Source: Dirofilaria immitis
Lineage: Eukaryota > Nematoda > Chromadorea > Rhabditida > Onchocercidae
Assembly: GCA_024305405.1 (NCBI GenBank)
Contig: JAKNDB010000088.1
Location: 1,568,001 to 1,632,000, forward strand
Reading direction: 5' to 3'
Length of the DNA stretch: 64,000 nt
A program made the position numbers and the translations under genes. The notes below the pieces were generated by a model. That model was given only the letters and a program-made list of their open reading frames with translations, was not told the DNA's origin and made no database searches. Of the stretch, positions 211 through 48,860 are shown in pieces (position 1 is the stretch's first letter; each line of letters starts with the position of its first letter).

Positions 211-1963
211 TATCATCCAGATGCAGTCAACAAATCAAGAGATGTTAATATGCAAGGGACGATTTATCTGGAAATCAAAGATGCATATGAAGTATTGAAA
301 GATAAGAAAAACGACAAGATTATGATTTGGGACTTACGAATACGTTCACATTTCATCCGACATACGGGAAACACAGTGAAACTACGGGTCAAAGCTTTAA
401 AAATGTGATTCATCAAATGTTAGTTTTACATCTATGATTAGTTTTATTTATAATTTTTTGATGCTATTTTATGGAATATTAATAACTATTATAGTTTCTT
501 TAATAAATTCGATAACCTATTAATGCAAATTTTATCTAATTAAAGTAATTTGACAAAGGTTACTATGAATCTCTGATATGAGGGAATTGGAAAAAAAAAC
601 GAAAAGCAATGGATTTTTATATTTTATATTAGGGATGAAAAATTTCAAAAAATATAAATCTATAATTCATTTATTTTTTGATAATCAATAAATATCATTA
701 ACATGAAATTTGATAATAATAATAATTGCTTTCTAAAGATTATTTCACATATTAAATCTGAAATATCAATTATTCTCCGTACTACATTTGAAATAATTTC
801 ATTGTGAAAAAATTTTTTACAAATATATTTTTATTATAATGCTTAATTTATGATATTATTTGCCAGTGTATTCTTATAAAAGACTGTATATTGTGATGCT
901 ATATATTATAGTTAAAATTTCATAAAGTATAATTAATATCAGGAAGACATAGATGATTTATGAAAATCTTATTTTATTAAATAAATATATATCCGTAACT
1001 TACTTTTTTCAGTTTTAGCTAACATTTCAATGAGATTAGATTTTTAGTTTTATGCAAGAACACCACAATATGATAATGATATTTGGTACGAATGGTATAG
1101 GAAACGACGTATGAATCAAATGGAAGCACGTTGGATTCGAAAGTGAATTATTTTTATATAATTTAGATGTACAGTTTCATTAGTAAAAAGTTTCATTTTA
1201 AGTTTATGATGAGAGCTATGTGAAAGATAAAATGTTAGAACACTAGAATAGAATCATTTTTGAATTAATAATTATTGAATTTTTATTTCTTTTCTCATAT
1301 TTTATATTCGGAAGAAGTTATGATGTTAATAAATTTTGGAATGATTTAAAAAGTTTTCCATTGTTGTAGGAAAAAATAGGCTCTATTTGGGAGTAATAGG
1401 TAAACATTTTCATCAATTTGAAAATGATTTTATGTTTCAGAAATACCGAAGATTATTGGCTGGGAACCGTAATGGTTGTTTTCGTGGCATCTTTTGTATT
1501 TTCGATGATTATACGTATACGGAGTGAACAGTAAGTTTTTCTTTGAAATTTTTGAAAAACTATTTTAAATATCAGAACAGAATGAACAGACAAAAGAGTA
1601 GACAAAATTTTTTAGATTTTTGGAGCTTTTAATATATAATCAATGAATGATTAGGTTTTAATATTTTTCGCAACATTTAGGATATCATATAAGAAAAATC
1701 TAGGATCTGATATCCTAAATAATCCTAATCATTCATTGATTTTTTTCCTTGCAAATTTTTTATTTGAAATGATTTAACTTACTACAAATTAGAAAATATG
1801 CTTGAAATTTATTGAAATCTGAGGAAATTTTTAAATTTTCAGTCGTCAACGAAAAGAATGGATTGGAAATTTGGCACGAAAAAATAATACACAAGAAACT
1901 GATGATAAAAATTTGAAGCGATATCCTGGAACAGTTCAAAAGAGAATAGTGTGGCTGCAATAG
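211..1963 (+). CDS. J-domain protein with C-terminal membrane segment (5' end outside window)
   Basis: Four exons read as 211-404, 1048-1142, 1441-1530 and 1843-1963 (TAG), all with GT-AG borders. The first visible exon opens with YHPD, the HPD motif by which J-domain co-chaperones stimulate Hsp70 ATPase, followed by the typical helix III/IV stretch IKDAYEVLKD. Helix I and II must lie upstream of the window. Exon 2 carries a basic, aromatic stretch (YEWYRKRR) and exon 3 one hydrophobic segment (GTVMVVFVASFVFSMII), so the protein is probably anchored in a membrane with a short basic tail. The layout resembles DNAJC4-type proteins, but I do not assign an orthologue. The frame breaks in the A run at 307-311: one more A restores the expected basic KKRQDYDL after the J-domain. 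The next gene has the same layout and may be a tandem paralogue. J-domain identity is firm; exon joins are inferred. Confidence 0.75.
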
Positions 1964-4209
1964 AAAGAAAAGAAAAAATTACTAAACCATAGAAAAGGGA
2001 AGCTAACGAATCGTTAGAGCAATTTTTTTTTCTGAATGTTTTTATTAGTATACTAATGTAATAGTATAGTTTGTATATATATATTAGCATGTTATTGTAC
2101 TCTTAAAGTTTTTTCTACTCTATTTAATTTACTTTCTAGAGAATGTACTGTTTTAGAAAATGACTACTGTATATTTAGTTTATTGATGTATTTTGATCTT
2201 CGGGTTTTATTTTTTATTAAAAAATCTTTTTCCTCTTCTTCTAGGAATTTGTATATTGCTGAAATAAGTAGCTATACCAGAAAATTTAATCATTATGATC
2301 GATCGTTTAAGAATAAATTTGCAAAATTATTCATCTTTCTATTTTTTTTCTTGTATTTTTCTGAATATCCCTCAGTTTCTGCATTTTTCACAATATCCTA
2401 CGGTTTTTTTGTCCTTCTGAATGCTTCCGTTTGTAATGCAATGAAATTTTGAATTTTTCATAATCTATAAAAATATATTAGATAGTATATACTCGTAGTT
2501 AAAATTATTCGAAAGATTCTGAACGATGCTAGCATTAATTAGCTTAGTTTGAATATGATTATCGTAATTGTAGAAGTTCGACATGAGAATATTTATTTTT
2601 AAATGAAAACATAGGATTTAAATTTTATTTCTTTTACTTTATAATTAGTTGATGATAAATTAAGGAATTTTAACAATAATATCACAATGCTAAAATAATA
2701 TTTAAATTTTAGTTTGATTTTATAACCTCATTTTATAATTTTTTCACTTTATGAAGAATATAGTTTCCATACATTTTAATTAGGAAATCCCAATAATTTT
2801 ATTATTTCGATTTATCAAAAATGTTTGCATCTGATTCCGGATATTTATTTAAATAGTAATTTAAGATGATGATGGAAATGAAACAATCAAGAATTAATTG
2901 ATTAATTAGAAAGTGACTAGAAATTTGGTTTAATTTTAAAAATTCAATAGAATTTTTGATATGCTAACCTTTTTTTCTTTTTTTCGACATTTGAGAATTC
3001 GTTTATACTGGTAATCTTATTATTATATTATATTTTTATGACAATTTTGAATTTGAACGGTTTTTTTCCGGCAATTTTGCTATCATTCTGTTCAACAATA
3101 TGTGATATTTTATTGCCTCTATAAAATGATTTAATTTCCATCATTAAATGAAATATTTTCAGGTTAATTTGTATAAATTGCCTTTTAAATAAATTTTATT
3201 GTTCGTTTTGATCTTTTAATTATTTATTGATAATTTTCATAATTTATTACTAAATCATAATAAACACACATTTTTTTTTTTTTTTTTACTATACCTTTAA
3301 CATATCTTGATTTTATACGTTTTTTTTTCTGATATTTCTTACTTTAAGATAACAAATATGTTCATTTATTACTAATTCTAATTGTTTTATAAAATTCATT
3401 CCTATAATCTTTCTGTATTTTTGAATTTTTTTAAATTTTTAATTATTTCTAATAAAATATCATTAGATTATATGGAAATTTTAATAAAATTTTTTCAATT
3501 AGTAAATTTCAAATTTTATTTTTTAAATCTTTTTTTTTGAAGAACATCTTTATTTTTAAATTTTCTTACTTCAATTATCTTATTTTTTTTTCTTTTCAAC
3601 TAAATTTCTGATTGCAGTTTCTTCAAGATGGCTTAATTTAGCATAATGATGAAAATATAAATAGAAAGGATCAATCCTAATTTTGTATTTTTATATATTC
3701 CAACTGAAAGTATATCTCTTTGATTCCGATCGTCGAAATGGGGTAAAATTTAAATCCATTAACAGAGATCTATGAGAGGTCAAGTCTGATACTAGTAAAT
3801 ACGGTAATTCTAGCTCTCAAAGTATATATTGTCATTGCTGCGATTAAAAAGTTCATAGTTGAATTTGAATTTTAGAACCTACTAATCTATCCGTTGTATG
3901 AGAACTGGGCTCTTTACGTTACATTAATTGATTGATTTCGTATGATGGCTAGCAAAGCTTATCTTGAAAATTGTTTTTTTTTTTATTATTCTTGCTACAA
4001 TTATCTTATGAATAATTATGATGATTAACTTTAATCAATTTTCTTTTTTTTTGAAAATTTCATAATCATAAATTATTTATATTTTTAAAATGCATAAATA
4101 TTACGCTTAATTTCTCATTTTTTTTTCTTTTCTTAGATTTCATCTCATGTATATATCAAAAATGGATTATGAATGACGAATAAAAGAAAGGATTTATTTG
4201 AACAATCGA
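1964..4209. other. AT-rich intergenic region, no gene seen
   Basis: This stretch between the two J-domain genes is dominated by poly-T and poly-A runs, including a run of 18 T near 3271. Short open frames exist but show no codon bias, no family motif and no credible splice context. A few moderately GC-richer bases around 3720-3960 have no recognisable content. Confidence 0.6.
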
Positions 4210-6048
4210 ATGTTTCAATTCATTTTTGCAATGTATTCTGGATACCGATTGATTCTCTTAAAACGAATCCTTCATTCATCTAATCGATTCATGCGACAAG
4301 CAATTAATTATCAAAAATTATTACGATATATTGGGTGTTAGTCGTAATGCAACACAACAAGAAATCAAAAATGCCTTCTATATGTTATCGAAAAAGTTAG
4401 AAAAATTTTCAAATAAATTTATATAAATTATAATAATTTATATTGATAATCGATTTATTAATAATTTTATCAATGAATTAAATGATTCGGATGTGATATC
4501 ATGATATCGTTGCATGTGTTTAATACTTATCATTAAATATTAATATGAATTAAATGTTGTATTATGATACATACATAGTATATTTACTATTTCTTATAAA
4601 ACTATAAGCAAGTAATAATTTCATTTCCATATCTATGATAAGTTGATATTATGATATTAGATTTTGAAGATTAGGTAAATTTGATATGAAAAAGTTATCG
4701 CAAAAATTTGTATATCATCTGATTTCAGTATCATCCGGATATTACTGGAAGCGCTGCTGAAAGTGCTCTTACGGAACGTTTTATTGCAATTAAGGAAGCG
4801 TATGATGTGCTTAAAGATGTAGAGAGTCGAAATGAATATGATGCATATCAAGCACAAACAAGTCACGATTACGGTCGACAAAATTACAATAGACAAAGCG
4901 CGGGATATACGTCATATGGTAGTTGGCGAAGTAATCGTTTTACCGGTAGCAATACCTATCGTACCAGTTGGCGATATGATGATGCTCATTTGAAGAGGGT
5001 TTGAAATTTTAAACTAGATTTAAACATTATTATAGTTTTTGATATCATTATTACGGTATTAAGACATTTTTAATATCATCAATAATCATCTTTACCGAAG
5101 AATATTGATGGAGAAATTTAGAGCAAAAGGGAAAGTAAAACACTTTAAGATCAATTAAGAGAATTTTTAAATAATTTAAATGAAGGATTTTAAGAAGTAA
5201 AGATTGGATAAACATGTTTTACTTGCTTATGTTTTTTCTTTCATTTTTTTAGATTTTAATCTATTCTTTTTTGTTTTGTAGGTTTTCGAAGAGTTACAAC
5301 GTCGTGCTGACGAATATGAAAAAGCTCAGAAAGAACGGGATGACAGATTTTGGGAAAAATTCTACCAGGCTGAGCGGGAACGATATAAACGGCGTCAACA
5401 AATGCCACCGAGGCCTAGTGTTAAACTTGCAATCGATAGGTATCATCATTTGCTTGCTATTTTATCTATAAAATGCAACCATTAATCTATTCTGGACGTC
5501 TTACTTGAGGATTCAAGCGAGATAGTTTTGGATTCGATTTTCTTAATCATTTTCAGAAATTTCATTTCAAGTATGTTTGATACATTGTCATATCAATAAT
5601 TCAACAAGAAGTTCTGATAATTTCGATGATTTTTGAATTTTTGAGAATAAACGGGGACTATTCTCATCCTATATACCTTTATATATCTAATTAAGATTTA
5701 CATATCTCAATTAAGATTTTTCTTTCAGTTGGCTTAGTGGACCATTACTTCCATATTTGCCTTACTTAAGTGCTGTTCTGATTATTTATATGATTGGATT
5801 CTTCATTCTTTCACTGTACAACATTGTTATGGGCAAGTAAGTTCTTTTTTCAGTTTCGTAAATTTCTAAATGCTTTTAAAGCGTTTAAAATCTAAAAGAA
5901 TGAGATGATAATGATTGATTACATACTTTTAAGGAAAATACCCGATGGTATAACTGAAGACTGTCAGCCACCAACAAATCTTAATGAAGCGAAAATTGAG
6001 GAATGTGAATTCGATGCGAAGAATTTGAAATATGACCAATCATACTAA
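4210..6048 (+). CDS. J-domain protein with single transmembrane segment
   Basis: Exons read as 4210-4395, 4729-4998, 5282-5439, 5729-5836 and 5934-6048 (TAA). Exon 1 encodes a basic, hydrophobic leader (ATG at 4210) that could be a mitochondrial presequence or signal anchor, then J-domain helix I/II (YYDILGVSRNATQQEIKNAF). Exon 2 opens with YHPD and continues with FIAIKEAYDVLKD, completing a canonical J-domain of about 65 residues. A Tyr/Ser/Arg/Asn-rich linker and a charged coiled-coil-like stretch (EYEKAQKERDDRFWEKF) follow. Exon 4 holds one membrane helix (YLSAVLIIYMIGFFILSLY); the C-terminus is short and acidic. The leader and the J-domain lie in different frames at the A run 4313-4317, where one A too many fits best, and the first exon-exon join would need one more A at 4391-4395. 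Alternatively the true start lies upstream. Role: Hsp70 recruitment at a membrane; compartment unknown. Confidence 0.75.
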
Positions 6049-7527
6049 TATTATAATTAGAATACATCTTTCAAAGGTTTCAATTTCAAATTTAAGATTT
6101 TTCTATGACAGCTATTATTTTTGTACAAATCTCAAGTTATTATTAATACAGTAAAATGGGAATTAATTCAAGATTTACTCAAAAATAACAAGAAAATAAT
6201 ATTGTTTTCCTTATAAATATCATTTTTTTGCCAACAATAAATATAGCTACTTAGTAACATTCTTATTTTTTCGAATTTTGAATTATTGAAAATATTTTTA
6301 ATAATTTTTAAAATTTCTTTTTGATTATTTTAGATATTCGATCGGAATATATCAGTTCAGAAATATTTGACTGTACGGCAATATGTTCAATTCAGAAGAA
6401 AGAAAAAGAGAAAAAGAATTATATTCTCATTTCACTTGTATGATTCAAAAAAAAAAAGATTCAATTTTTATTAAATATTCTTCTTTATAATCCAAAAAAG
6501 TTTGTATTCTATTAAATTATATGCTCCTCGCAATTATCAAACTGTTGTTATCTATAAATAATTTTATTTTTAGCAATTTCAAATATGGGCAATTAAATAT
6601 GATAAGATTCATTGTTTCATCTAGAAATTTTCAAATCAAAATTTAACTATCAAATACTTTTTATAGATTTAAGATTTTGAAATGTATATTTTTCTTGAAT
6701 TATTGTTGGGCCAAAAAAATGAAAGAATTAAACGATTTTAGCATTCGGATTAATTCAATAATCTACATATTAATAACTGAAATCATGATATTATGTATAA
6801 GTTATCGTATTTTTCGTATTGTATCATATACATTTACGTATCTTACATACATAAGTAACGTAATTCACGCGAAATTCCACGCCTCAAATGTCTTATATGT
6901 CGAGGTTTAAGACAGCGCTACTAATCTTGCAAGAATGAATTTTTGCGCTACTTCATTTAAGATTGAATCTCATAACGATTATGAATTACGGTGGTCAATT
7001 ATGCATAGCAGACTAGCCTGGTTTATGTTGCGAAGGCGGGCGAGCTAGTGAAGACGAGATCGAGAGTGGGATGTTGCGGTGAGGCAGGTGTATTAATGAA
7101 ATTATTTGGGTATAAGGTGAATATGAGAGAATAATGATGATATTAAGGATGGAAATAAAGATTATTATTGAAATTTTCATAGAAAACATATGAAAATAAT
7201 ATGATAGAATAATATATAGCATACTCATAATGTATTTGCTCACATATATTCACTGGAAAATAAAGCATTAATTCGGGAATGATCGGACGATGCAACTAAA
7301 TGTTATTCTTCATTTTATTTATTTTTTGTTGAGAATTATTTATGAGAAAATTAAATTTGATGAATTCGTGATCCGATATTAATTGATCAATCAATTAATG
7401 TTAGTTAATTTAGCAGTTGATCAATTAAATGCAAATAATTGATGTCTTTGATTATTCTTTGTTCGCTTGATTCATTTAGTTCACGAATTATTATTGATTA
7501 ATAAATGTTAATATTTTTAGGAATATA
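6049..7527. other. Intergenic region with a small GC-rich island
   Basis: No gene is supported. The stretch is AT-rich except for about 6860-7100, and mainly 7010-7090, where a G-rich plus strand (GCGAAGGCGGGCGAGC and following purine-rich bases) stands out against the roughly 25% GC background. I could not fold this into a tRNA, 5S rRNA or spliced-leader RNA by eye. The first ATG after it is the UBA2 start. Confidence 0.5.
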
Positions 7528-10500
7528 ATGACCTGGCAGAACAAACAATTTTTAGAAGTTTTACAATGTCCTATATTGGTTGTTGGAGTTGGTGGTATCG
7601 GTTGCGAATTATTAAAAATTTAGCCTTAACCGGTTTTTCCAACATCGAAATTGTAACTTTTGCATTTTTATGATAGCAAAGTTTTTATCCATATCTTTTT
7701 CATATCATTGGATTGATTTAAATTATTATCAGATATTGAGGTATTTAGATTGAAACTGATGAATTTCTAGACATATGTTTATCACATGATTAGGCAGAAT
7801 AAATGATATGTTTATTAAGTTAGGATAGTTTATCTAAATTTTCGGAAATTTATCGAAATTTTTATTTAGTTGTTCTAAACATTTCGAAATATGATAAACA
7901 TAAGAGTTGAATGATTTTTTTATTTTCCATGAATTGTATATTGTATTAACTACTGTAAAACTATCATTATCATTTTCAGATTGATTTGGATACAATTGAT
8001 GTAAGCAATTTGAATCGGCAATTCTTGTTTCGCCGTGAACATGTTGGTAAACCGAAAGCAATTATTGCCGCGGAAGCAGTTCGATCATTTGCTCCTAATG
8101 TAAGGATTGTGTGTCATCATGATTCGGTGCTAAAGTATGTTATTTATTTTCAAGAAGTATTTCTTAAATATGAAATCTATTATTTATACTATTCAGCGAT
8201 AGTTACATTTAGTAATCCATATAATTGTAAGAACAATTTAATGGCATAATCTGTTTTAAAAAATTTTATATACAGTTCTTTTCGCAGTACCAAATGTTTC
8301 GTAATTTTAAGGAATTTGTATTTGTTTGCGCAAAATTCAAAAATCCATATGATGTTTAGTTATCTATTATCATCATTCGCTGTCAGAATATATTATCTGT
8401 TTTAAAGCAGTATTTTTCTAGACATAACCATCGCTATGTAATCTAAATAGTAAACTGTAAGAATAATTTAACAGTGTTATCTGTTTTAAAAATTCTCGCA
8501 AATATCTGGCAATGCCGATTTATACTGTTTGTCAAAAATATTTGGTCTCAGAAATTCGTATAATGCTCTTTCCATGGTTTCAGGGAAGAATATGGTGTTG
8601 ACTTTTTCAAAAATTCACAGTGGTTCTTAGTGCACTGGACAACATAGGTATGTAAAATTATGACACTTAAAAGTTTCAAAAGAATTTAGAAATTTTTTCC
8701 TGCCTTGAAACAGTAATTTACATTTAACCCATTTGTTATTAAAAATAATTTTTTTTTTTAAACTTTTGTAATTTTTCTTGTTTCAGCTGCACGAAATCAC
8801 ATCAATCGCCTTTGCTTAGCAGCTCGAGTACCTTTAATTGAAAGTGGTTCTTCCGGTTATTTGGGACATGCAAGTTTACATTTTATGTTTATTTTATATA
8901 TTCATGAATATAATAATTAAGCTTCGTTTATTCTGAAATATTGTGGCATGAAAAATTGATTGAGATTGCTTTAATTCAGGTGCGCCTAATAATTCGTGAT
9001 TACACTGAATGTTATGAATGTAATCCAAAGACAGTGCAGAAAACATATCCTGGATGTACAATTCGTAACACACCATCGGAGCATATTCACTGCATTGTTT
9101 GGGCAAAACATCTTTTAAGTTCGCTTTTCCTCATTATTGAATAATTGATGTTGGTAATAGTTATATAGAAGTCTAAACGGCATAGAATAGTTTTTTTTTC
9201 TTTTTTTCATATTTGAATCACTGCATGATTATGCGTGATTTTAAGAATGATATTAAATAAAATATTAGATGAAATAAAACAATGAGTAAACTTCGTTTTC
9301 AGTCAACTTTTCGGTGAGCCGGATGATGAAGATGAAGTATCTCCAGATTTCACGGATGAAGAAAATTTAGAAGGTCAGAGCACAAATAATAATGATAGGA
9401 AGAATGGAAATTCCGCTCTTAATACAGGAGGGAAAATTGATGATGGTCCATTGATGCATGATAATGGTGGGCTTTTGAACAGAATCAATACGCGAAAATG
9501 GGCTGCTGAAAACGACTATGATCCAAAATCCTTTTCAGAAAAGTTTGTTTTAAAATAATTTCCTTAGCGACTTATGTGCTTGGTAGCGCGTCAAATTTTT
9601 GTGAGGCTTATTTGCCAGTTAAATAACAAATATTCGAATTTCTGTTTCATATTTCGATTATAATTGCGAACGTTGCAAAATATTTTTGAGGCTAATTTCC
9701 ATTTTCTATGTGATTTTAAGTCATATTTCAGTTCTTTCACGATGATATCAATTACCTTTTGAGTATGACAAATTTGTGGAAACAAAGAAGGAAACCATTT
9801 CCATTAGACTGGGATAATCTTCCGAATGAAAGTGAGTTTTAGTAGTAGCGCAAATATATTCCACAATTTCAAGTAGGCTGCATTTAGTTCTTATAGAAGG
9901 AATTAAAAATAGAAATGTAGTCGATTATTTCATAATGCAGAATCCATGGTTTTCTATTAATTATTTCAAAACGCGAAAATTCAAATTTTCGAATATAATT
10001 AAAGTGGGAAACTCGGAAAAATACAGAGAAGTACGCTACTTTCGAGAATTAGTGTAAGTTATTATTTTATAATTTAGAAATTTCATGCTGCACATATATT
10101 TAGATGCTAGTTCAAGCAATAACGAACCAGATGCGGAATTGTGGACAGTCATGCAATGTAACATCGAATTTGAAAAAGCAGTTTCTATATTATGCAAGCG
10201 AGTTAAGGATGGATCAGTGTTATCATGGGATAAGGTTATCTTCATTTCTTCTTTCCTTAAAATATATTGGAAAAAAGGCAGTTCTCTTTTTTTGTTTGTT
10301 AAATATGGTTATTCAGATTGTTTTCAATTTGTTTAAAAATGAAGCTCAGTACCAAATTTTGAGTTATACATATCTCTTTTTTTTAGGATGATGATCCAGC
10401 AATGCGTTTTGTAGCCGCGTGTGCTAATCTTCGTGCTCATATCTTCAGCATTCCTTTAAAAACGCTTTTCGATATAAAATGCAAGTTTTTAAAGAGAATT

Positions 10501-12155
10501 TTAGCTGATTTTGTTCTTGAAACTGTAGCAGGACTTTAATTTATATGTTAGTAAAGCTATTTAATAAAGTAAGTGAATAAGTTGGTGTATGTATTTTCGT
10601 TTAATCCGGAATAATTTCTAGAACTATTGGAATAATCATTTATCTACTTTGAAAAGGCGTTGAAAATTCGATCACTCTTGAAATTGACCTAGTGATAGGA
10701 GAAATGAAGTTCGGAGTATTCCATATGAAATTCTTGAAATCAAATCAATCATTTTATTTTATAGCGATGGCGGGCAATATTATACCTGCTATTGCTACTA
10801 CAAATGCTATAGTAGCGGGAATGATTGTTACTGAAGCACTAAAAGTTGTTTTCGGTACGAGAGACAAACTGCGAAATGTTAGTTTTTATTTGCTGTCGTG
10901 AAAATATAGCTTCACTAGATTCATTTTTTTCGAGCATCTTGACTTAGTTGGTTCATCTACCAATAAAAAAAAATCTCCATATTGCTAGATAATAATTTTG
11001 TTGTATATTACCAGTGAGGGTACATTCTAGACAAGCAAAGGGCTCGAAATTTATAAAAATAAAATATTGGTGTCTAGGTGTTAGGATTCATTATATTTGT
11101 AAAACTAGGAATTTTTATTGTTTATGCTTGATGAAAGTAGGTAAATTCCTTTTTTCAGATTTTTATAAAGCCAAAGCCAAATCCACGTGGCAAAATTTTG
11201 ATTGAGGAAGTGCCTTCTAAACCTAATCAACATTGTTATGTTTGTTCGGAACGACGAGAAATAACGCTGAAATTGAATGTTAAATTGACTACTGTTCATT
11301 CATTGGAAAATAAGTTTTTGAAGGAATTTTGCATATGGTGGCACCTGATGTTATGATTTCTTTAAGTGGAAATATCGTAATTTCAAGTGAAGAAGGTGAA
11401 ACTAAAGGTGAATATTAATTTTGCTTGTTTGTAAATAGCAATTTTTTCTTTCCTTTTCAAATCAATATTCAAAATCATCTGGAACGCTTTCTACAAACTT
11501 GCCAGTACATATCATATGAAAATAAAAAAACAATTATTTCGGCATCATTTATATTAGAATCTTATTATCTTCGTCGTCTAAAGCTTCTTCATTAGGTCAG
11601 TTATATCTTATTATGTGTTATTAGAATGCTACAATTTTGAAGACTCATACAAATGAATTTTTTTCAACCGTTTTTAGCTACTAGTGAACGAATTCTGGAA
11701 AAAGTTGGCGTTATTCATGGTTGCATCTTAGAGTGCGATGATTTTTGCAAAGGCTGGAACTTCGGATTCGTATCGAACACAGTAACGAACTGAAGTCTGA
11801 TGAATTTGTGATAGCAATGGATACTGATGCCGTTGCAATAAATGGTTAATTTGCTTTGCATTTTGTTTAAATCTGATGAAATTTGACAAGTTCCTCAATT
11901 CTCAGATATTTTAATAAATGTTTTGAAATGACGCCAAAACTTTTTAGTGGTTTGTTTTAGTAAAGAAAAAGTTTCTTTAGTCAAGAACGCGAAAAGTTTA
12001 TCTGTCGGGCACAGTTTCTTTTTTTTTTTCGAATATAAATTGATTTTTTTACAGGACAAGAAGATGGGAAACAAGGGCATAAAATAAAACGGCCATTATC
12101 TGATGCAATTGATGAATGTTCGCCGACAAAAATTCGAAAAATGATGGCGAAATAA
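7528..12155 (+). CDS. uba-2: SUMO-activating enzyme subunit 2 (UBA2/SAE2)
   Basis: UBA2 pairs with AOS1 as the SUMO E1: it adenylates the SUMO C-terminus, then carries SUMO as a thioester before transfer to UBC9. Thirteen exons (7528-7652, 7980-8134, 8584-8647, 8787-8869, 8980-9118, 9303-9542, 9732-9831, 10104-10234, 10387-10480, 10765-10877, 11159-11407, 11678-11844, 12055-12155) give about 588 residues, normal for the family. In order: the nucleotide-binding glycine loop [10 protein letters not shown], the [16 protein letters not shown] block, the catalytic cysteine in [11 protein letters not shown], zinc ligands CYEC and later [21 protein letters not shown], the ubiquitin-like domain (MVAPDV, SSEEGET) and a basic, nuclear-signal-like C-terminus. 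At least five exons lose frame by one base in an A or T run (near 7614, 8610, 9113, 11320, 11735; a sixth probable at the exon end 9542). The start follows a TTTTTAG acceptor, suggesting trans-splicing. Confidence 0.93.
8870..8979 (+). other. uba-2: GC-AG intron in uba-2
   Basis: Family conservation (GYLG, one residue, then V) fixes the exon end at GGACAT. The intron then begins GCAAGT, the strong consensus of GC-AG introns, and ends TTCAG before GTGCGC. A GT at the next possible position (AAGTTT) would put the following exon out of frame. Confidence 0.8.
10481..10764 (+). other. uba-2: Second GC-AG intron in uba-2
   Basis: The conserved stretch [19 protein letters not shown] is interrupted after the first base of the serine codon. 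The intron starts GCAAGT and ends TATAG, and joining the exons restores the conserved residues exactly. Confidence 0.85.
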
Positions 12156-14527
12156 ATTCATCTGAATTATATTCCTGAAAACTTGCATTATTTTATTATG
12201 TAACCTATCTTAACTTCCTGAGATTTTATTGGACTCTGTTGAACTTTCTGGGATTTTTATTTTGTTTCACACTTGTTAGAAGATTCTAGGACTGATACGC
12301 AATTAGTTAAAAGTTGAAGCAGAAAAATTTCTGAGACTCTATTTTATTATTCATTCTTGCTCCTTTGAAATTCCTTAGCGAATGTTTTGATATATTCTGT
12401 TTTTCATTTTTCTTTTGCTTGTTTTTTTTTCTGTGTTGGAATATTTTGACGTGATAAATTAACAAATCATGTAAATAAATTATTTGTATATTAAAATCTT
12501 ACCTCATTAAAAATACGAATTCACAATAATGAAATAGAAGGAGATTTGTCATTTATCATTATTCATTTATATCTTATTTCTATATTGATGTAATTTATCG
12601 TTTTCATGAATCCTCGATATTTTTGAACTTAGCATATCATTCTTTTGCGTCCTTTGATCTTTGATCTTTTATATCTCTATGGATACCTTTATGTGGTATC
12701 AGTAGTGATTTAAAATAAATATATTAAAGAAATAATTTGATTTCCTTATATTCCTCATAAATCAATTTTAATAATCTTGCTTTTTATCTATACTTATTCT
12801 CTAATGCAAGTGCATATATGTGACGCCACTATTTTAAATATCAATAACTGGAATACTGTAGTCATAATTAATTGAATTTAACATTATTTTCAATGAAGCA
12901 TTAAGTAATATTTCATTCCATCGTGATTTTTCGTCATTATCAATTATCACAGCATTAATCGAGTTGTAAATCATCAAGGATAATATACTGATTAAATTTC
13001 TAATCGCTTTATTTTTGTATTTTGCAATTATCTATTATGTCTTTAGCGGATGATCTGAAAATATATCATTCTACTATTCTTTATTTTTCCCCTATTTTTT
13101 TTTGCTCTTTCAAATTATAAATATTACTAACTTTATCGAAACACTAACACTTTCTATAATCCCGGTATATTTTCTTTTATTTATCAAGACAATATGATTG
13201 AACTGAAACATTGTATCGATTTATTTTCATTCTTCTGTTTCTTAATTATGCATATTTTTTAAAATATCCTTTAGTTGACTTATAAATTTTTATTTTCTCA
13301 ATTATTTCAATCATCCGAATAAAATGATTGAATCAATAATTATTGGTATTATTCAAGAATGATTTATAAATAATTCAAAAGTTCTGAAAGATTGATACAG
13401 CGCACATAGGCAACTTCATAAATGCTTATTCCTAGAAATATGTTAATTATGCGTATTGTAATAACATCATGCTATCGATAGGAAAGATAAAGTTTCAAAA
13501 TCTCTCATACCAAAACTTTCAAAATACATCTCGCTGATCATTAATACTTTCTTTTTTGAGTGGAAAAATTTGAATAGATATGTATGATGGAAGTGTTAAT
13601 ATCAATCTTGAATAATTCAACCATAATATGTTTATCAGCTGCATAGATTGTTTGTAAATGTTAAAATTTTTAAATTTTTCTAATTAAATTTGCAATATTT
13701 TCAATTTAATTCTGTATCAGATTTGATTTAACTTAATTTAATTCAATTCATATTAAAAATTTATCGCAATATATTTCAATTTAATCAATCAAACATTGAT
13801 ATACGGTAGATTGGAAAGAAAAAAATATATACGATTATTTATTTCGTAATTTTTGATTCGGTATGTGTTTGTACACTGCGCGAGAAACTTCGTAAACTTT
13901 TTTTCTTTTTAATTGGAATATTTATTTCCTTTCTAAAAATTCATTATTTACCGTACTTTTTAAAATATTTTTAATTATTGAAATTTCGAGATATAAAACG
14001 CTTAGTTAATTTAAAAGAGTAATTGAATCAAAATTGCTTAATTATATGATAATTTCTTCTAAATAATTATTTCGTTATAATTTAGCCCAAAATATATATT
14101 ATTGACAAGAGAAAATTTATTATTTTTTTCAAACGAAAAATTATTCCCATTCTCGAATTATTCTTAAAAGATAATCTCACAAGAAAAACAAATAAATGCT
14201 CTTTCAAGAAAAAAAGAAATTATTGCTATAAATCATTTAGAAAACAAAAACATTTATTAAGATATACAAATAATCATAATAAAATTTTATGCCATTCAAT
14301 GATATATTATTATTATTCCGATATTATATATATATATTATAAAATTTTCTTATTTTAATTATCTCCTTTTTGAATTCCTTTTTCTTCTGATAATTTAACA
14401 TTGTGAGGAATTTTTTTAAAAAAAAGACCACAAATTATTTTCAAGCAAATTCAATTTAAATTCGAAATAAAAAAATCTTTTTTCTAAATCTAAGATAAGA
14501 TATGAAAAGAAAAAGCTTATTTTCATT
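12156..14527. other. Intergenic region between convergent uba-2 and phosphatase genes
   Basis: AT-rich sequence with no coding signal. It contains the 3' ends of two tail-to-tail genes; AATAAA-like strings (for example ATGTAAATAAAT near 12470) could serve polyadenylation of uba-2. Nothing else is supported. Confidence 0.6.
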
Positions 14528-14719: not shown

Positions 14720-14760
<41 letters not shown>

Positions 14761-15345: not shown

Positions 15346-15387
<42 letters not shown>

Positions 15388-18300: not shown

Positions 18301-19707
18301 GCAGACTTTTCATAGAAATCAATAATAATGCGGTAATGATAATTTTCATTCTATTATTCCATCCAATTCGATTTCGAATATAATTAACGTAAATGATTAC
18401 TTTAAATATGTAATTCAATAAATTCTAATTTTTCATAATAAAAATTAAATAAAACGAAATATCTGAGTATAGAATCAAAAACAGTAGTACTAAAAATAAC
18501 ATCAATTACTAATTAATCTAATCTATTAGAAAAATTACTTAATTATAACTAAATTAATTAATGATAAGTATAAATGATTGTTTTTAATTCATTAACAGTA
18601 TTGATTAATTTAATCACCAAAAAAAGGGCGCAAATTTAATTGATATAAAATGCATTACCTGACCATGAATATCACCAACAATGATACATGGTAATGGTAT
18701 TTCAAGTAAAGATGGTTCATTCTGAATTATTGGCTTAATATCACTTAAAATTTCAATAAGTTCATTAGCATCATATTCGATTTCTAAAGAAAAAAATACT
18801 ATGTTTAAATAGAATTTATCAATTTCTGATATTATTAAAAATTTGAATAAGTTTTAATTAAAACATATTTTTATAAAATTTAACTTGTTTCTCTGTAAAA
18901 TATTCGATCTTTTTCTATTATTCAATATTTAATTGATTAAAATATATTTCATCTATTCTTTAAAATTTTTTTATGAAATAAATTAAATGATTGTACTTAT
19001 AAATACTTTTTTCTATTTTAAATGAAAGCAATAAAAATTTGCGAAATTATTCAAAATATACAAATCAGAGAGTAAATTTGAAATTAATCCCAATTTAACC
19101 ATAGCAATAGAATTTATAAAATTATTCAAAATATGCAAAATTAGATTCGTAAAATTGAATACTTATAAATAATTCATTAACAAAATTTTAATTAGGAGCC
19201 GATTAAGTTTATTTTTTTGTTAAATAAATAAACTTTTCTCATTCTCATTTTTGATTTTTCCTTATTATTATTATTATTACTTTTTTCTTTGTTTCGCATG
19301 ATACTAACCAATTTCACCCATAAGAAGTGTATGTTTATTGAAGAAATTTTCGTGTAATTTTCGTCGAGAAATAGCATTTCCATTTTTTTAATTCAGTTTT
19401 TTCATCATTTTTATTTTCGATTCGTTACGTTTTATTTCTTCTGATTTTTCCACCAATATTTGCATTTTCTTTCTTTTTGATTCGTCCATTTCTTGTGTCT
19501 CATCCACATTAACTTTATTAACATCTCGAATCAGCTCATCTTTGATAATATCATTTTTTGCTAATTTTTTATCAAATGTTTTAGTTCCTGATGTTTTTGC
19601 CACTCCAGAACGATTCTCTGCTACTGTAGCAATGGTCGGATCAGTTTTAACTTTTGCTAATTTTTTGATTTAGATTCATTTTCAATAGAATCTTTTGAAG
19701 TTTTCAT
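14528..19707 (-). CDS. PP1-like Ser/Thr protein phosphatase, divergent
   Basis: Eight exons on the minus strand: 19707-19309, 18783-18659, 18129-17969, 17198-16974, 16223-16035, 15335-15256, 15071-14987, 14677-14528 (TAA). The PPP-family metal and catalytic motifs are all present in order: [41 protein letters not shown], a conserved RGVS arginine and RAHQ. It matches PP1 better than PP2A or PP2B ([17 protein letters not shown]). Unusual points are a Lys/Glu-rich N-terminal extension of over 100 residues, a beta12-beta13 loop reading SAPRYDFEK where PP1 has SAPNYCGEF, and a tail with an E/K-rich end. Frame breaks of one missing base occur in runs near 19661, 18090 and 15310; an in-frame TAA near 19390 may reflect more missing A's between the extension and the catalytic core. 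It may be one of the nematode-expanded, often germline, PP1 relatives; substrate unknown. Confidence 0.88.
14719..14757. repeat. (AAT)n microsatellite
   Basis: About 13 tandem AAT units in the last intron of the phosphatase gene. A simple repeat with no other features. Confidence 0.95.
15344..15384. repeat. (AAT)n microsatellite
   Basis: A second run of about 13 AAT units, in the intron just upstream (on the minus strand) of the exon at 15335. It lies about 600 bases from the other AAT run in the same gene. Confidence 0.95.
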
Positions 19708-23509: not shown

Positions 23510-26500
23510 ATGGGTAATCGTGAATCATCGACAAAAGAAGATGATGGTAAACCGAAGGAAAAAGATCAACCACGTTTGTATCAATATGTTGATATACATG
23601 GTGGTGGTGATTTGATACCTTTTATGTGGCAAGCTAAAAATAGCGGTGATTTTTCACAAATTAATGAATTGATCAATTCGAAGGTTTTTATTTAAATTTA
23701 TCTTTCTTATTATCTGCGATAAAATTAAACTTTAATTTAAAATCCATTTTAGTTTTTTTTCTCTTATAGCAAAATTTTATGACGGTATAAGTAATATAAA
23801 TGCAAAAGTTAAAAAGATTAATAAATTTATCATTTTAAACAGCACTAATAATAAAATCTGACAAAATTATTTTTTGAATCAAAGAACTGGAGTAAGAAGG
23901 AAGAAAATTTAAATATCAGTGATAAGAGCATTATCAACATTGGAAAATATTTCGTCTATAATAAATTTATGATAACAAAATATTTCAATACTAATAGATT
24001 TTCTCATTGATATCTTCTTTTTCCATTTAAATTTAAAAGTCGTAAAATATTCAGTAAATTGTTCTATATTTAATTTAATTTTAGATTAAAAATTTTAAAT
24101 CAGTAAGGAAATAATTGTTCTATATTTAATTTAATTTTAGATTAAAAATTTTAAATCAATAAGGAAATAATTGTTCTATATTTAATTTAATTTTAGATTA
24201 AAAATTTTATGTACAATTCGGGTAAAGGTAAAATGGTGGCAGTTTCTGAGTTGGTTAAAATTCGTAATAAAGAGCGTAATGCAATGTTAAGTGCATTGAA
24301 ACGTAAGAAAGGAAAAGGTAAAAGTGGACCAAATATTTTAGACGATTTCGATCAGGAAGGTGAAAATCAAGGAGATTTAAAAAGGTTTCATTTTTATATT
24401 AAATGTACAAAATGGCATATACATGAATAGCAATTAATGAATTTATTAGTAATATTTAATAAATAATAATTACATAAATTTGTAGAATGTAAAATGTAAT
24501 TATAATATAAAAGATGTATGGATATATACATATGTCTAAAAAGTAGTATTCCGTAAATATATATATGTATGTAAAATCAAACTATATGTAAATAAATTAA
24601 ACAATAAATACATAGAAAAGAGCAGCAGGATAAAATAATAAATAGGTTTTAAATTTCACCATTATTCTTATCATGATTATTTCAAATAGTTCATTATAAA
24701 TGTTATTACTACCAATTAATGGTAACTGCTATCTTGTAGCATTAAAACTTCTCGAAGGTGGTGGACGACGCGGTGATATGGATTCTAAATATCGTGATGT
24801 AGTTTGGAAATTAGACGAACGTGGTAATATGGGTGAGAATCTTGTTGGTTTATGCTTATTACAAGGAACCGCAATACATAATCATTTGGCTCGTCACTTA
24901 ATCAAAATGTATCCAAAGCTTGTCAACGATATTTTCATCAGTGAAAACTACTACGGTATAATTGAATGGAATCATTGCTATAGGATGAAAATAACAAAAA
25001 TTATCGATAATTTTTAGACGTTTACTTTCTTATTATTCAAAGAGAGACATTATAATCTTGCCTTTTTAACAAGTCATCATTTATAATTTTTATCATTATA
25101 CAATAAAATGTTCTTATTAACACTTAAATATTCTAGAAAATAAAAGAATAAAAAAAAGTTAAATAATTCGTATAATTGGCCCAGTAAATAATCTAGATAA
25201 CAAAATATTTAATATAGAAAAGAAAAAAACGACTATTTATATGCTTTCTTATTTTATTTTCTTTTCGTTTACTATTACTTTTTTGAATATTTCGGGAGAT
25301 ATTACAGGTTTGTCACCGTTACATCAGGCAATAATGAATGAAGATCCGGAAATGGTCAATTTTTATTACGAGAAGGTGCAAATATCAATCAACGCTGTTA
25401 TGGTGCATCATTTTGTCCCGATGATCAGAAAAGTAGTCGAACTGATTCATTGGAGCATGAATATGTGGAACTTAGTTTGAAAACATCTTATTCCGGGTTT
25501 GCTAAATGTTACTAATTTTAAGAAATGCCAGATATCCTCTCCAACGATTTCATCATCATGATTTGTCGAAAAATTTATTCCTTATTTTCGGGAAGGAACT
25601 TTCTTCGTTGTTTGTATTTTGTTGATTGGAGATTGATTCTTTATGCTATTGCGATTCAACTAAATCAGCGATAGGCTTTATTGTGCTATATCTTATTACA
25701 ATACAATATGGTATCGATTAAACGCACAATAGATAGTAAATGAATTAAAGAATAGCGATAGTCGTTTAAATATTAGCGATGTTGTCGTAATTCCCTTTCT
25801 GTTATTATCGATTCCCTTCCACTCTATCATTGCTATTGCTTCTGCTTCTACAACATTGCGGTTCACTTGAACTGTACTCCTTGGTGAACCGTCGCTTATG
25901 CTGTTAGACTGTCGAATAACCAACCACTCCTGTTGCCTTCGTATCATCTGCGAAATTGAATGCTCCTCCTCCCTTGATCCTCTTTGTTCCTTTAACATTC
26001 CTCATATAGCGATTTACATCGTTTGATTTCGCTAATGTTTCTCGTCTATTTCGTCTTGTCACATATAGTTTTTGGATTTTTGCCGATATCATCATTATCA
26101 TTCTATAATTATTTATAATAATTCCAATATTAGTAGGAATCAAAAAAATATGCCAAAATATAAATGATTTACAAAGCTAAAATATTCGATACACTTTATC
26201 AATAATCGTTAAATTATCATAATTATAATAATAAAATTGCAGGAATATAGGAAATAGTAAAAAAAAAAAAATTGTTTTTTGATGCCTTATAATCTTATAA
26301 AATAACATCTAGCCGCATATTCAAATGCAAAAATTTGTATATTTAGACGAATGTATTTTGGCGAATATCCATTATCATATGCAGCTTGCATTAATCAAAC
26401 GGATTGTTTCCGATTGTTAGTGGCCAAAAGGCTGATCTCAATCAGAAGGATACGAATGGAAATACGGTCTTACATCTTGCTGTAATCCATGAACAGCCAG

Positions 26501-29500
26501 TAAATAATTAAAATAATTTTATTACAATTTATGATTTAAATTTTACGATAATATATCATAAAATATTTTATAGAAAGACATATATGTTCCTATTTTGTAA
26601 ACGCAAAATTTCATATAAATTTTTTTGTAACTGTGAAATTTTCTTTTAAAATTTTCTTATTAATTTTGCTAATAATTTTTTTTTAAATTATTACTTTTAC
26701 GAGAAATTTTACGGAAACTATTATCAGGAAATGATCAAATTATCATATAAAATGGGTGCTAAGTTACAAATAGTTAACAAGCAAAATTTAACTCCTCTCA
26801 CTTTGGCTGCACATCTGGGAAAGAAAGAGGTAAGTATATAACAAATACTGTAAAATAATAATTATGCAAAAATTTTAGCTTAAATTTTTAAAAGTTTTTC
26901 ACTTGAAATCTTTTAATTTTTTCGTTCATGATTCCCTTGAAAAAATAATAAACAAGAAAATACTTTTTGCTTATAATTATCCAATTTCTGTTGCAAATTA
27001 AAAAAAAATAAAATGTCGTTAAAAGGATAAACTAAAAAAATAAATTATTTTTAAATTGGAAATTTTATTTTACAACTTATTTGAAGAGAATGACAAAAAC
27101 CTAATTTTACGAGCTTCAATTAAACTATTTTTGAACTCAAAAATTTTATTTTATAATTTGCTTGAAGAAAAAAGAAATAGTTTTGTTGTTTAAGTTTTTA
27201 TTAAATTGTTTCTAAATTTAAAACTTTTACTTTATAATTTATTTGCTTTCTTTCAAATCTTTGCTTATCTAATTATTTGATGAATTTTAGATCTTCGAAC
27301 AAATTTTAAAATTAGAGGCAGATGTTGTTTGGATTTACGGTAATGCAAGCAGTTACGCATATCCGTTAGCTCGTATTGATACAATAAGTCAAGAAACTGG
27401 AGAAATGAATGAAGACAGTGTACTATCACTTACCGTATACGGGGTAAGCATTATCGTATTTGCTCAGTAATGTATTCGTAATTCGCATAGCCTTTAATTA
27501 TGCATTTTTCTCTTATCTACTAAATTTTTGATCTAAGTCTCAAATCCTCTGACAGCAAGCAATACGTACCATGGATAATATTTGAATTTATATTCCCGTA
27601 GATGTTCATTGTGAAGGAGAAATTATTGTCAAGAAAATATTATTTCCTGTATCTAAGTTTATTTCATTTTTTGCTGTTTGTTGATCAATTATTTACTTAT
27701 TGATTGATCAGTTTGATTATATTTTTAATATTGTTGGCTTTTCTTTTCATTATTTTTGAAAAGAAACTAATCGTTCGTAAATAGCGAACATTTCAATTTA
27801 TATGATATTCCATTTTTTTCCTAAAATAATACATAATTTGAATTTCAGGAAACGACGAAACATTTAAATCTTCTCGATGGATTGTTAGAAGAGTTATTGG
27901 AGGCTAAATGGGAAGCATTTGGACGTCGATAGTAAGAGTAATTTTGGAAAGAATAAATAAAAACGATAAAATTTCTAAATCTTAACTTTAATAATATTAA
28001 GGAAATGGAATAGTAATATTAAGGGTATTATTCTGTTTTCATTAAATAATATTTATCAGCAAAACTTATAATATTTTTCTATATAGCTTAAAATTCCGAA
28101 TTAAATATTTAACAAATGTTATTTTTTAAAGTTTATACAAAACTGGATGAGTTTGATAATTGACACTTAATTTATGGTTAATTATATATGAATTATTATT
28201 GCAGTTTAACATTATCATTTTCTTGTTTTGTGATTTATTTCATATTTGTATTTATGGCATTTATGTGTCGACCTTTTTCGATGACAACAAAGGTTAAATT
28301 TTCCAAATGCTTAACATATTTATTTTTATATTAATCAAATATGCTTTTCATTTATTCCATTAGCTTATTTTAATCATTTATCATTGATGATATTATCAAA
28401 ATCAATGATTGAAGGTGATAACAAATGATCAAATTATTAGTCGAAATAATTCAATTCCATGCAATAATACATCATATGATAATGCATGTCCTAATGCTAC
28501 TTATACCGTATTCGATTATATGGTTCTTAAAGCTACAACGCTGCAATCATTTTCATCGTATGCTGCAAACGATCAAATTTCACTTACATTAAAAATTTTG
28601 GTATGCCAACCTTTTTCCTTATTTTTGGAATGTATTTAAAATTTTTCATCTACTTAATCGTATTTCTAACACCTATATTCAATTGATTATTTATTCAAAT
28701 GGAACAATTTTCCTTTTTTAAATCATTCTTTTTGCTATTAAAAAAAACCATAATTTAATTGATAAATTTAGGTAATACCAATTACAGAGAGATAAATTAT
28801 TCTGAAACTTATGTCGAAAATATTATTTTTTTAATTTTATCTTTTAAAAATGAGAAATTTTTGAAATTTTGCATTTAATAAATAGGATGTGTGAAAATTG
28901 AAAATAAAACATTATGCAAAAGTTTTCGACTACGCTACTGAATTAAAGTGATTGCAATCAATTATTCTAATTATTATTATTCGTTCTAATAAATTAGTTA
29001 ATAAAAATATCAATGATTTTTCAAATGCCTTTTTTTTTAAAAAAGAATTGAGCAGTGATTTTTTTTTCACAGAAAAAGTTTGGTATCATTCCGATCTTTG
29101 TCATCTGTGGCGATATACTAATGCAGGATGGCAACAATATGTTAGTTTTAAAACGATTTAAAAGGATATCTTTTTACACACAGAATTATTATTTCATGTT
29201 TCTCTTATTATTATTCGATTGGATCAATTTTCCACTTTAAGCAACTTTTGAATAAATTTGTTGAAGTTAGCAATTGATAGTAAAATACTCAAATGGATTT
29301 TTTGACTGACTGTTTCAATAAAGTGACAAAAAGAATTATAATATTAATAGTAATAATAATGCTGGAATATAATACTGAAATAAGTAATGATATATAATGA
29401 AGTAAGTAATGATATATAATGAAGTAGAAGAATGTAGTTCTAAAATAGATGAAATCTAAAAAACACATGTGTTAATTAATTCTGCAAAATAATTTATTCG

Positions 29501-32500
29501 ATTATGCAACTAATGTTTAATATAATATCCAATGAATCTAGTGTATAAGCTTAAAGTGGAATCATCATGATAAATATGCTAAAGTATCGCATGATATGCA
29601 ATTTATTTGAACTATTTAAATTTAGCTTCTTAATTAGAATTGCAACTTCTTGAATTATTTTCGAATTTTCGTGAATTTTGATTTATTTTTTTGGAATGAA
29701 ATAGGTTCGCTTAGTTGCTGAACAAACGGTACTATTAATGGCATTAGTGCAAATTGTATGTGATGCGATAGATATGAAAAATGTTGGTCGAAAACGTTGG
29801 TGGCGTGTTATGGTATTTTGATTATATTAAATAGCATAATTTCCTTTCATTTTTGTTTAATATTTATTTTAAAAAAATTATTTTTAAATATTTTTTGAAA
29901 AATTTCTGAATTAAATGAAAAAGTTAACTTTTGAATTTCGAAATTTCAAATTAAATTTTTGGCGTTTAAGTGTAAGTAAAAAAAAATTATATTGTAGAAA
30001 TCATTTCCGGCTAAAATTGCTTACAAAATTTCATTTATTTTTATCATATTAATTGTACCGATACGATTGGGCTGTGCATTATCAGCAACGATGCTTTTGC
30101 TGGATAATATTTTATCACTAATGATTGTCTTATTAACTGGTGCACATTTTTTATTTTACACAAGGTTTTTTTTTCATTTGAATTTTATTTAAATTTAAAC
30201 TTAAATAACAGTCAGTTTGGGACTACTTATTTTGTGTTAAGTTCTGGAAAAACTGAAAATTATTTTCATTTCTAGGATGACAAACATTCTGGAATAATAA
30301 TTTAATATTCGAGAATACAATTTGAATATATTTATATAGCAATTGTTGCCTTAACATTTAAGGGCTTTGAAATTTATTGGACCATTCGTTTTGATGATTT
30401 ATACCATACTTTCACGTGATATAAGTCGTTTTATGCTAATTTATTCGATATTTCTGATTGGATTCTCTCAATGTTCGTTAATTTCTAATTAAGATTTTTC
30501 GAAAAGTTTAAAAGTTGAAAAGCGAAAGTTACTTGAAAAACATTCAGCAAAAATTTTTTGCCGTGTACTTTGAATTTTTCTTATATTTTTAAAAACGATT
30601 TAAAAGCAAAAAAAAAATGATAGACGAAAAATTTTCACCATCTACTTATCATTTGTTTCGTACTATGCATTAGATAAGCTTTAAGCATCATAGGATTTAA
30701 AGCCTTAAGCATCATAGGATTTAAAGCCTTAAGCATCATAGGATGTCATAAGTCTAAAACTTTATAGAAATGAAGAATTTATAAGATATCTCTTGGCCTT
30801 CCTTTTGTTATTCTTTCCTATTTCCATTTATCAATACTTTATCATTTTTGATTGTTTTGTTATCATTTGAAATTCCATAATCTTATTATTACTAGAATAA
30901 TTTGTGATTAAATCAATATTTCTCCAAAAATTCAAAAATGCTTTATCTTAAATGAAATAATATTTCATTTCAGACTTATTATCTTATTTACTAAATAAAC
31001 AGTGTCTATTTCAATTTTTCATAAAATATTAATATTATCATTGTTAGCTAAAGTTTCATTTTCAATAAAATATTCCATTTTTAAGTTTTGAATTTTTAAC
31101 ATTTTTTTTCAAGCATTTTATGTAATTTTTGGAGCTTGCGAACGAGCAAGCAAAGCTAAATATGGTATTCATTCTACACGTTGGGAAAATATCTTAAATA
31201 CACCATTTGAAGCTATCATGAGATTATTCATTATGACCATCGGTGAATTTACCATTTTTATCGTTCGTTGAATACATGCGAGGAAAGAATGATGCAAATG
31301 ATTGGTAAGGTATGAATTTTGTAAGTTTAAAATTTGTGAAAATTCTTTTTAATAATAAAATTCAAAAAATATTATTACCTAAATTTACGATAAGCATTCA
31401 AATTTATTGCTTTAGAAAAGAAAAATGAAAATATTAGGAATACTTAAAATTCATAATAAATGAACTAGAAATATAAAATTTAATCATAAAATTTGAAAAT
31501 AATTAAAAGCGAAATTTTTAATTTATTTCATACTTTATATATTTATGCATCTGTGAGTATGTATATTATACATGTATGTATGTATATAAGAATGCATGGT
31601 CAATTAATCAAATATATATATTAATAAATTCATTTAACAATACTTTACATCTAAAATATTTGATGTTAGTTTCGGGTAAATTACTATTTTTATAATAGTC
31701 ATTAAATAATCAAGAAAGACGACGAATATATTTTTCGCAATTTAATTTGTATAGAAATTATTAATACATTTTAAATTAAAATGATATTTCTTTTTTCAAA
31801 TTTATAGTTTCTGTTCACTATATTTGAATTATTTATCAGTATTATGCAATTTAATCTATTAATTGCTATGATGACAAGAACTTATGAAACTATTTCAAGG
31901 ACATCAACCGAATGGAAAAGACAAGTTAGTTTTATCAGAAAATATTTTTCAAATGCATTTTTTTCAAATAATTAACAAATAATTACAATAAAATGAATCA
32001 TTATTGCAGATAGAAATTAATTAATAAATAGGATTTGATTACTGTAATCATTTACTAATCATTGATAAATTCAAGTGCTTCATTTCATTTAGTCTAGTAC
32101 AAAATTATCGTTGTGTAATATAAAAGTGTAGTTAATAAACAAAGAATTCCCAGATTTATTTTTATTTATTTTTAATCTCTGATTATTATACTAAAGGCGA
32201 TAAATTAAAGAATTTTTTATGAAATGATGAATTACAAAAAATTCCCAATATTGCATATTATCGATGATTATTAATTTTCGATTTCAACATTAATTTTAAT
32301 TGATTATCTTTTTTTCCTTTAATAGTGGGCTCAAGTAATTTTATTCTTGGAATTGTCATTGAAACCGAAAGAACGCCTTATTGCAATGCTGAAATATTCT
32401 CGTCCAATTGGTACGGATAAGACAAAACGTTCATTTGTTGTTGCCAGAAAGATTACGGTTTGTTAAATTTCTTTCAATTGTTATGAGTAAATTTGTAAAT

Positions 32501-33277
32501 AAACAAATAACAAAGTGAATAAATGCTGAATAAATTTGAAAACCAATAAATTTTTCCATCATATCGAAATTGCCCCATTTTAATTTCATCTTCTAGTCAT
32601 TTTGATTCCATGTTGACGATAATATGCTCTTAAATTCCATTTCAATTCTATTCCACAGATTCCATCCTGATTTTATTTTGGTCAATTATCTTGACTCTAT
32701 TTCCATAAATTTTTTCTTGATGTTACTCTTTGAATTTCGCCAAGATGAAATAGCTTTCATTTTGGCTTAGATTTGAGTTTGAAGTAATCCGTCTAGATTT
32801 CATTTTGATTATTCTCATAGATTTTCTATTCACTTCAGTACTAACTATCGGAATTAATGCTGATTTTCATTGTTCTATAATTTGTTCGCCAATCCTTCTA
32901 GAGTGATTCAATGTCACAAACTGAAAAGCAATTACTCGAACAACAAGAACGTGATTTACGTGAAGAAAAGCGAGCTTTGCTAAAAAGACGTTTAAAAGTG
33001 GGCTAATACTAATTTTTAATTTAAAAAAAAAGATACTTTTTATATTGTAGAAGAGAATTTTTAAAAAAAAACTTAAAAGTTTTGGAAGTACAAGAATTAA
33101 TATTTGCAAAATTTGGACTTATGTATTCTCTTTTGCAATTAATTCAAGTGTTATGATTAAATTTGATAAATTGTATTCATTTTACAGGATTTTGTGCATA
33201 CACCAGATGGTCGGAGACCATTGACATCATATTTGTCAACACCATCAAGAAATATGAATGGAGGAAGGATTGCATAA
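23510..33277 (+). CDS. osm-9: TRPV cation channel, OSM-9-like
   Basis: TRPV channels are tetrameric plasma-membrane cation channels; in C. elegans OSM-9 acts in ciliated sensory neurons for smell, touch and osmotic avoidance. Nineteen exons (first 23510-23683, last 33188-33277) give about 870 residues. The N-terminus (YQYVDIHGGGDLIP) precedes ankyrin repeats (LSPLHQAIMNEDPEMV, DTNGNTVLHLAVIHEQ, LTPLTLAAHLGKKE). Next come TM1 (FVIYFIFVFMAFMCRPFS), an outer loop with likely N-glycosylation sites (NNTS, NATY), TM2-TM5, the pore helix and selectivity region FIMTIGEFTIF, TM6 (FELFISIMQFNLLIAMMTRT) with the TRP-box-like stretch after it (EWKRQWAQVI), and a charged, probably coiled-coil tail. ATG 23510 follows ATTCAAG, a possible trans-splice acceptor. 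One-base losses break the frame at 25360, 26426, 29073 and 31255; the exon 2 to exon 3 junction is unresolved. OSM-9 rather than an OCR paralogue is my reading, not proven. Confidence 0.88.
24059..24209 (+). repeat. 56-bp tandem repeat carrying repeated 3' splice sites
   Basis: Units start at 24059, 24115 and 24171 with a period of 56 and almost no differences. Each contains AATTTAATTTTAG followed by ATTAAAAATTTTA, so potential acceptors end at 24084, 24140 and 24196. Only the last joins directly to the coding part of TRPV exon 2 (24197-24384) in frame with exon 1. Confidence 0.9.
25497..26346. other. GC-richer insert in a TRPV intron
   Basis: This intron contains about 25550-26130 of clearly higher GC than its surroundings, with minus-strand open frames of about 100 and 79 codons. 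I recognise no domain in them. A piece near 25610-25680 resembles sequence near 38505-38575 (both share a GATTGGA...CTTTTTGCTATT/CTTTATGCTATT...AGCTAGATTATAAATAGGC-like core), so this is most likely a dispersed repeat or transposon remnant rather than a gene within an intron. Confidence 0.45.
30683..30751. repeat. 24-bp tandem repeat, about 2.8 units
   Basis: AAGCATCATAGGATTTAAAG followed by CCTT is repeated at 30683, 30707 and 30731 with a period of 24. It lies in the TRPV intron before the pore-region exon. Confidence 0.9.
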
Positions 33278-48815: not shown

Positions 48816-48860
48816 TTGCATTGTACAGTAAATGCGCACATGCAACATACACTTTTTCAT

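Follow-up and report, generated by a model that had tools for sequence, protein, structure and literature searches.

Sequence assembled from R9-type nanopore reads carries a well-described class of error, in which runs of identical bases change in length by one base and the change survives correction with the same reads. In the available part of a benchmark on a bacterium, wrong homopolymer lengths were, after methylation motifs, the majority of errors (Wick et al. 2019, PMC6591954). Likewise, the portion at hand of a report on a nanopore-only assembly of Brugia malayi gives 553,752 indels remaining against the reference after polishing (PMC6925183). In this study, a stretch of 64,000 nucleotides from the heartworm Dirofilaria immitis (hereafter the window; bases 1,568,001-1,632,000 of the 3,687,191-base contig C18, assembly GCA_024305405.1) was analysed, in which conserved genes, among them UBA2 (SUMO-activating enzyme subunit 2), lose their reading frames at short A or T runs written one base too short. 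We conclude that these one-base losses are almost certainly consensus errors of a nanopore-only D. immitis assembly and not biology; a homopolymer consensus artefact is of an already known kind. As far as the available text describes it, the B. malayi assembly is alike in being filarial and made from MinION reads only, with mismatches that are mostly indels and coding sequences that are shortened, but unlike that of the heartworm it went through Nanopolish and could be measured against a reference (PMC6925183). Relative to the bacterial benchmark, as seen in the same part of that text, the heartworm errors run almost purely in the direction of loss, and A/T content leads to heavy damage of coding sequence (PMC6591954).

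The published record of the assembly is consistent with this conclusion. According to the available text of PMC9179477, sequencing employed a MinION R9.4.1 flow cell with the basecaller Guppy 2.3.5, assembly was done by Flye 2.8.3 (-nano-raw), and correction was by Pilon on mapped raw reads; genes were called with GeneMark-ES, and BUSCO completeness was 93.9%. The methods in that text name no short reads, and the words polish, Medaka and homopolymer have no occurrence in it. GCA_024305405.1 is thus a nanopore-only assembly for which no accurate-read polishing is named. The same source gives 110 contigs, 87,899,012 bases and an N50 of 3687191, and GCA_024305405.1 is listed elsewhere with 86,813,779 bases and an N50 of 4,253,153 (PMC12693587, in the part available). 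The copy searched here comprised 86.69 Mb in 65 contigs, some of the published contigs being absent from it.

Reading frames were followed with a purpose-written protein-to-genome aligner that allows both introns and frameshifts. Its counts cover UBA2, the TRPV gene, the PP1-like gene and the second J-domain gene, 6,244 exonic bases altogether. The genes concerned were placed in the window as follows:
211-1963, forward strand: J-domain gene 1, truncated by the start of the window, ends set by eye; likely one-base loss in the A run 307-311.
4231-6048, forward strand: J-domain gene 2, ends set by eye; one base missing from the A run 4391-4395, and the A run 4313-4317 ambiguous between -2 and +1.
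7528-12178, forward strand: UBA2, 13 coding exons from the ATG at 7528, by alignment to the D. immitis protein P0001.
14529-19707, reverse strand: PP1-like phosphatase gene, ends set by eye; one-base losses in the runs 18057-18061 and 15309-15314.
23510-33277, forward strand: TRPV-type channel gene; single bases lost near 25360, 26426, 28591 and 31255, and one site near 24380 that is ambiguous (-2 or +1).

In the four counted genes, 14 one-base losses and two ambiguous sites were found, or about 2.2 losses per exonic kb, and frameshift-aware alignment of these exonic bases returned no clear one-base gain. By a sign test, the excess of losses is unlikely to arise by chance (14/14, p ~1e-4; 14 versus 2, p ~0.004). 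When the aligner was given E. coli dnaK against human HSC70 (304 identities in 592) as a control, it called no frameshift. By eye, against the reference proteins, the best position of 13 of the 14 losses is in an A/T run of 4 to 6 bases, and one is best explained as a missing G. As written in the assembly, nine of these runs have five bases (one of them possibly C instead), three have four and one has six.

UBA2 contributes seven one-base losses and no gain relative to P0001, near 7612, 8609, 9112, 9529, 11321, 11746 and 12135; the loss at 11321 is probably the G, as implied by P0001, and that at 8609 is T or C. P0001, a second UBA2 record of D. immitis, comes from a contig 15,145,155 bases long; it is complete and, at the protein level, retains the UAE_UbL domain. 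When the frame is read through, the window gene is 97% identical to P0001, with few ordinary amino-acid differences. P0001 also has one further exon upstream of the UBA2 ATG, at about 6935-7030; because the aligner missed this matching exon some 500 bases upstream, P0001 residues 1-31, where two stops and one -2 were called, were excluded from the counts. As for conservation of the frameshift sites in other species, many relatives are listed with full-length UBA2, as protein records only. Two UBA2 introns (window 8870-8979 and 10481-10764) are apparently GC-AG, and P0001 is consistent with both. In Setaria digitata, the annotation of P0009 joins a gene-2-like J-domain gene to UBA2 in one protein, in the same order as window 4231-12178; either conserved neighbours were joined by prediction or the two share a transcript.

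For the remaining genes, the calls depend on more distant references. J-domain gene 2 was aligned to residues 1-262 of Setaria P0009, of which 1-231 aligned. The TRPV calls were identical with Acanthocheilonema P0121 (779/863 residues identical) and Cercopithifilaria P0122. PP1-like counts are based on P0244; both losses were reproduced with P0244, P0246 and P0255, while P0250 backs 18057-18061 and not 15309-15314, P0250 and human PP1 each giving another call at one site (-2, +2).

These alignments allowed the original prediction, which had listed eight broken places, to be examined position by position. All eight are present: the runs at 307-311, 7614-7618, 19661-19666, 25360-25364, 26426-26429 and 31255-31259 are exactly as it described, and its single positions 11320 and 15310 each coincide with a break. 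Its claim that one extra base restores the family sequence was borne out by alignment to a homologous protein at six of the eight (7614, 11320, 15310, 25360, 26426 and 31255). At 307-311 the restoring alignment is a weak frameshift match to a paralogue (score 56); a DnaJ domain is found in the public model P0022. At 19661-19666, an N-terminal third break of the PP1-like gene beyond the reach of P0244, P0246, P0250 and P0255, the evidence is continuity of frame. The claim that losses dominate, with one or two sites needing a base removed, held for the 14 losses, but in place of removals we found just the two sites of -2 or +1. A, T or C runs had been named as the context; 13 of the 14 losses are at A/T runs (one possibly C), and the loss at 11321 departs from this in implying a G. 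An NRF gene had also been placed within 211-33277; its actual site is about window 45504-45668, beyond that span. To the genes it had listed as damaged, J-domain gene 2 is to be added. Every conserved gene was said to be broken, and this stands for the five recognised in 211-33277 (for J-domain gene 1, on the weak match just given).

Losses of the same kind were found outside the window. In three HSP70 genes (1,860 aligned codons) there were 3, 1 and 1 losses, and in four actin-family genes (1,459 aligned codons) 1, 1, 0 and 0, both intact ones lying on contig C58. Overall, the other contigs gave seven losses affecting five of seven genes, and the printed context showed each to be a single missing base that restores the family reading. 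After recheck, no gain survived in these seven genes; the first +1 calls in HSP70 (one on C21, two on C65) were gone once a closer reference was used or the GC-AG intron was made cheaper. Since two of the seven are clean, "every conserved gene" overstates the case genome-wide. For the myosin family only loci were obtained, since no reference was close enough for frameshift counts. Mitochondrial COX1 was tried as a high-coverage control and set aside, as the search returned six partial matches in nuclear contigs, five of them with stops, and no intact gene. Among these COX1-like stretches are C58:519462-520413, C64:1211108-1211437, C26:881535-881876 and C26:1610144-1610332; they probably represent mitochondrial or bacterial DNA copied into the nucleus.

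Duplicated sequence in the window provided an internal test of the same point. The near-identical pair used for it is:
45546-50063, no strand assigned: duplication arm 1, one member of an inverted pair.
59892-64403, no strand assigned: duplication arm 2, of which 59892-64000 is in the window and the remainder, to 64403, in L083.
By BLASTN, the arms are 99.58% identical over 4522 columns. Five mismatches and 14 single-base gaps separate them, each of the gaps being a one-step difference in A/T run length; a comparison of arms is blind to errors common to both copies. Other alignments gave similar figures (MAFFT, 4 mismatches, with runs accounting for 12 of 14 gap columns; BLASTN over 4119 columns, 2 mismatches and 14/14). 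Each of two more near-identical pairs showed a single mismatch; their single-base gaps numbered 5 and 4, of which 4 and 3 were in runs. Independent consensus errors in near-identical copies would be expected to leave such a pattern, with noise in run length and almost no substitutions. An older pair from the same region, about 82% identical, had 238 mismatches, 21 single-base gaps (13 outside runs) and 27 longer gaps. Window 33501-64000 together with L083 forms a nest of inverted and direct duplications (for example 45546-50063/59892-64403 and 39358-42897/49729-53276), which may be a genuine palindromic array or may have arisen in assembly. The array carries chemoreceptor-like fragments, with Srab/Sre Pfam matches in two of four stretches tried, one of them below the cut-off, and it also holds the NRF domain. 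A search with the Srab family gave no match within the window, and the fragments were therefore not counted with Srab.

Run lengths themselves were also examined. In the exons of the four genes, A/T runs as written number 43 at five bases, 4 at six and 1 at seven; given this excess of five-base over six-base runs, and losses at five-base runs, it appears that the assembly writes most of the true six-base runs in these exons as five. Against a third-order Markov model fitted to the same sequence, A/T runs in the window stood at 0.72 of expectation for six, 0.50 for eight and 2.47 for nine. In 169,427 off-window bases (37 stretches, 17 contigs) the values were 0.78 for six, 0.82 for seven, 0.69 for eight and 0.95 for nine. 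A flip-flop style caller could yield an odd-even alternation in run lengths; the Guppy model used is not stated. It is therefore tempting, though doubtful, to take the spectrum, with A/T runs of six and eight too rare and nine too common, as a reference-free fingerprint of the basecaller. Since the deficit at six to eight recurs off-window and the peak at nine does not, the odd-even pattern is unproven. The available part of PMC6591954 contains no passage on odd versus even run lengths. If the fingerprint were true, unpolished nanopore assemblies, and proteins derived from them, would be recognisable from sequence alone.

That the broken genes are real pseudogenes, lying for instance in a sex-linked region under decay or in a defunct duplicate, and that intact copies exist elsewhere, is very improbable. 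Frames in the window sequence are indeed open only piecewise, and the TRPV gene has a paralogue on C42 (C42:54313-61332). Among the matches listed, its closest are at 82-83% (Acanthocheilonema, Cercopithifilaria, Elaeophora, Litomosoides), while those in Brugia, Loa and O. volvulus reach only 60-65%, apart from a shorter O. flexuosa match of 77% over 76% of the query; judged from these sequences, a lineage-specific loss of one of the two TRPV paralogues is possible. Decay of the window TRPV gene itself was considered and rejected, as it is highly conserved despite the C42 paralogue. A pseudogene shares broken frames with the UBA2 locus, but differs in three respects: no second UBA2 locus was found in the searched genome, only two short matches of lower strength, one on C65 (63% over 46 residues) and one on C10 (25%), which by sequence would be other family members or chance; missense changes are few; and a complete record exists from the same species. 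The breaks are single-base and in short runs, constraint shows no sign of having been relaxed in UBA2 or TRPV, and like losses occur in HSP70 and actin genes on other contigs. For UBA2, P0001 already points to an intact gene at this locus in the species. Nor are the indels at all likely to be genuine variants that set this Portuguese worm apart from other heartworms. The small number of ordinary amino-acid differences between UBA2 and P0001 would fit such variation, but seven frame-breaking losses and zero gains in one essential gene are not ordinary variation, and the older copy pair in the window has diverged mostly by substitution. Still less probable, to the point of being negligible, is that the short runs are real and are bypassed by programmed ribosomal frameshifting or RNA editing. 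The breaks do lie mostly in A or T runs, the easiest slippage sites, but at the density observed in unrelated genes slippage would be needed genome-wide; moreover, P0001 is complete from another contig, and near-identical copies differ in run length.

Several observations weigh against consensus error. The off-window loss rate (7 in 3,319 aligned codons) is about one third of the window's, and two actin genes are clean. One inverted pair in the window, at 98.96% identity, has 21 mismatches and 10 single-base gaps, of which only five are in runs. Phage sequence was tried as a natural control for run lengths and was a poor one (runs of six at 1.31 and of seven at 0.47 of expectation); as its distribution differs, there is no good natural control. 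Among the 120 matches listed for each, no second D. immitis protein is named for TRPV or the PP1-like gene, so UBA2 is the sole within-species check.

Taken together, the nanopore-only source, the direction of loss on several contigs, the complete P0001 and the copies that differ by run length support consensus error, as had been proposed; of the two sequencing types suggested, long reads agree with the published method, and pyrosequencing does not. With the R9.4.1 pore, there is little change of signal while a run of identical bases passes. The basecaller would then under-count A/T runs of about five or more, an under-count that would be common to most reads, and because most reads share it, Flye and Pilon working with the same reads would be unable to remove the error. 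Runs would be written one base short, exon frames would shift, and gene prediction would in turn fuse, skip or truncate exons.

Damaged gene calls had been forecast, and P0022 and P0241 bear this out. P0022, a public D. immitis "SUMO-activating enzyme subunit 2" from this contig, is a wrong fusion of three genes, both J-domain genes and UBA2; its UBA2 part skips a segment, ends early and is without the UAE_UbL domain. P0241, from the same contig, is a damaged phosphatase model. According to the available parts of the respective reports, the assembly has been employed as a mapping reference (PMC11144916) and as protein evidence for annotation of D. asiatica (PMC12546972), and was included in a survey of Wolbachia insertions (PMC12693587). 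For D. immitis, a chromosome-scale assembly from HiFi reads is described in PMC12562366, which names PRJNA1246367. Damaged gene models thus stand in public databases under the heartworm's name, and for any reading of gene loss, gene fusion or pseudogenes from this assembly, an accurate assembly should be consulted first.

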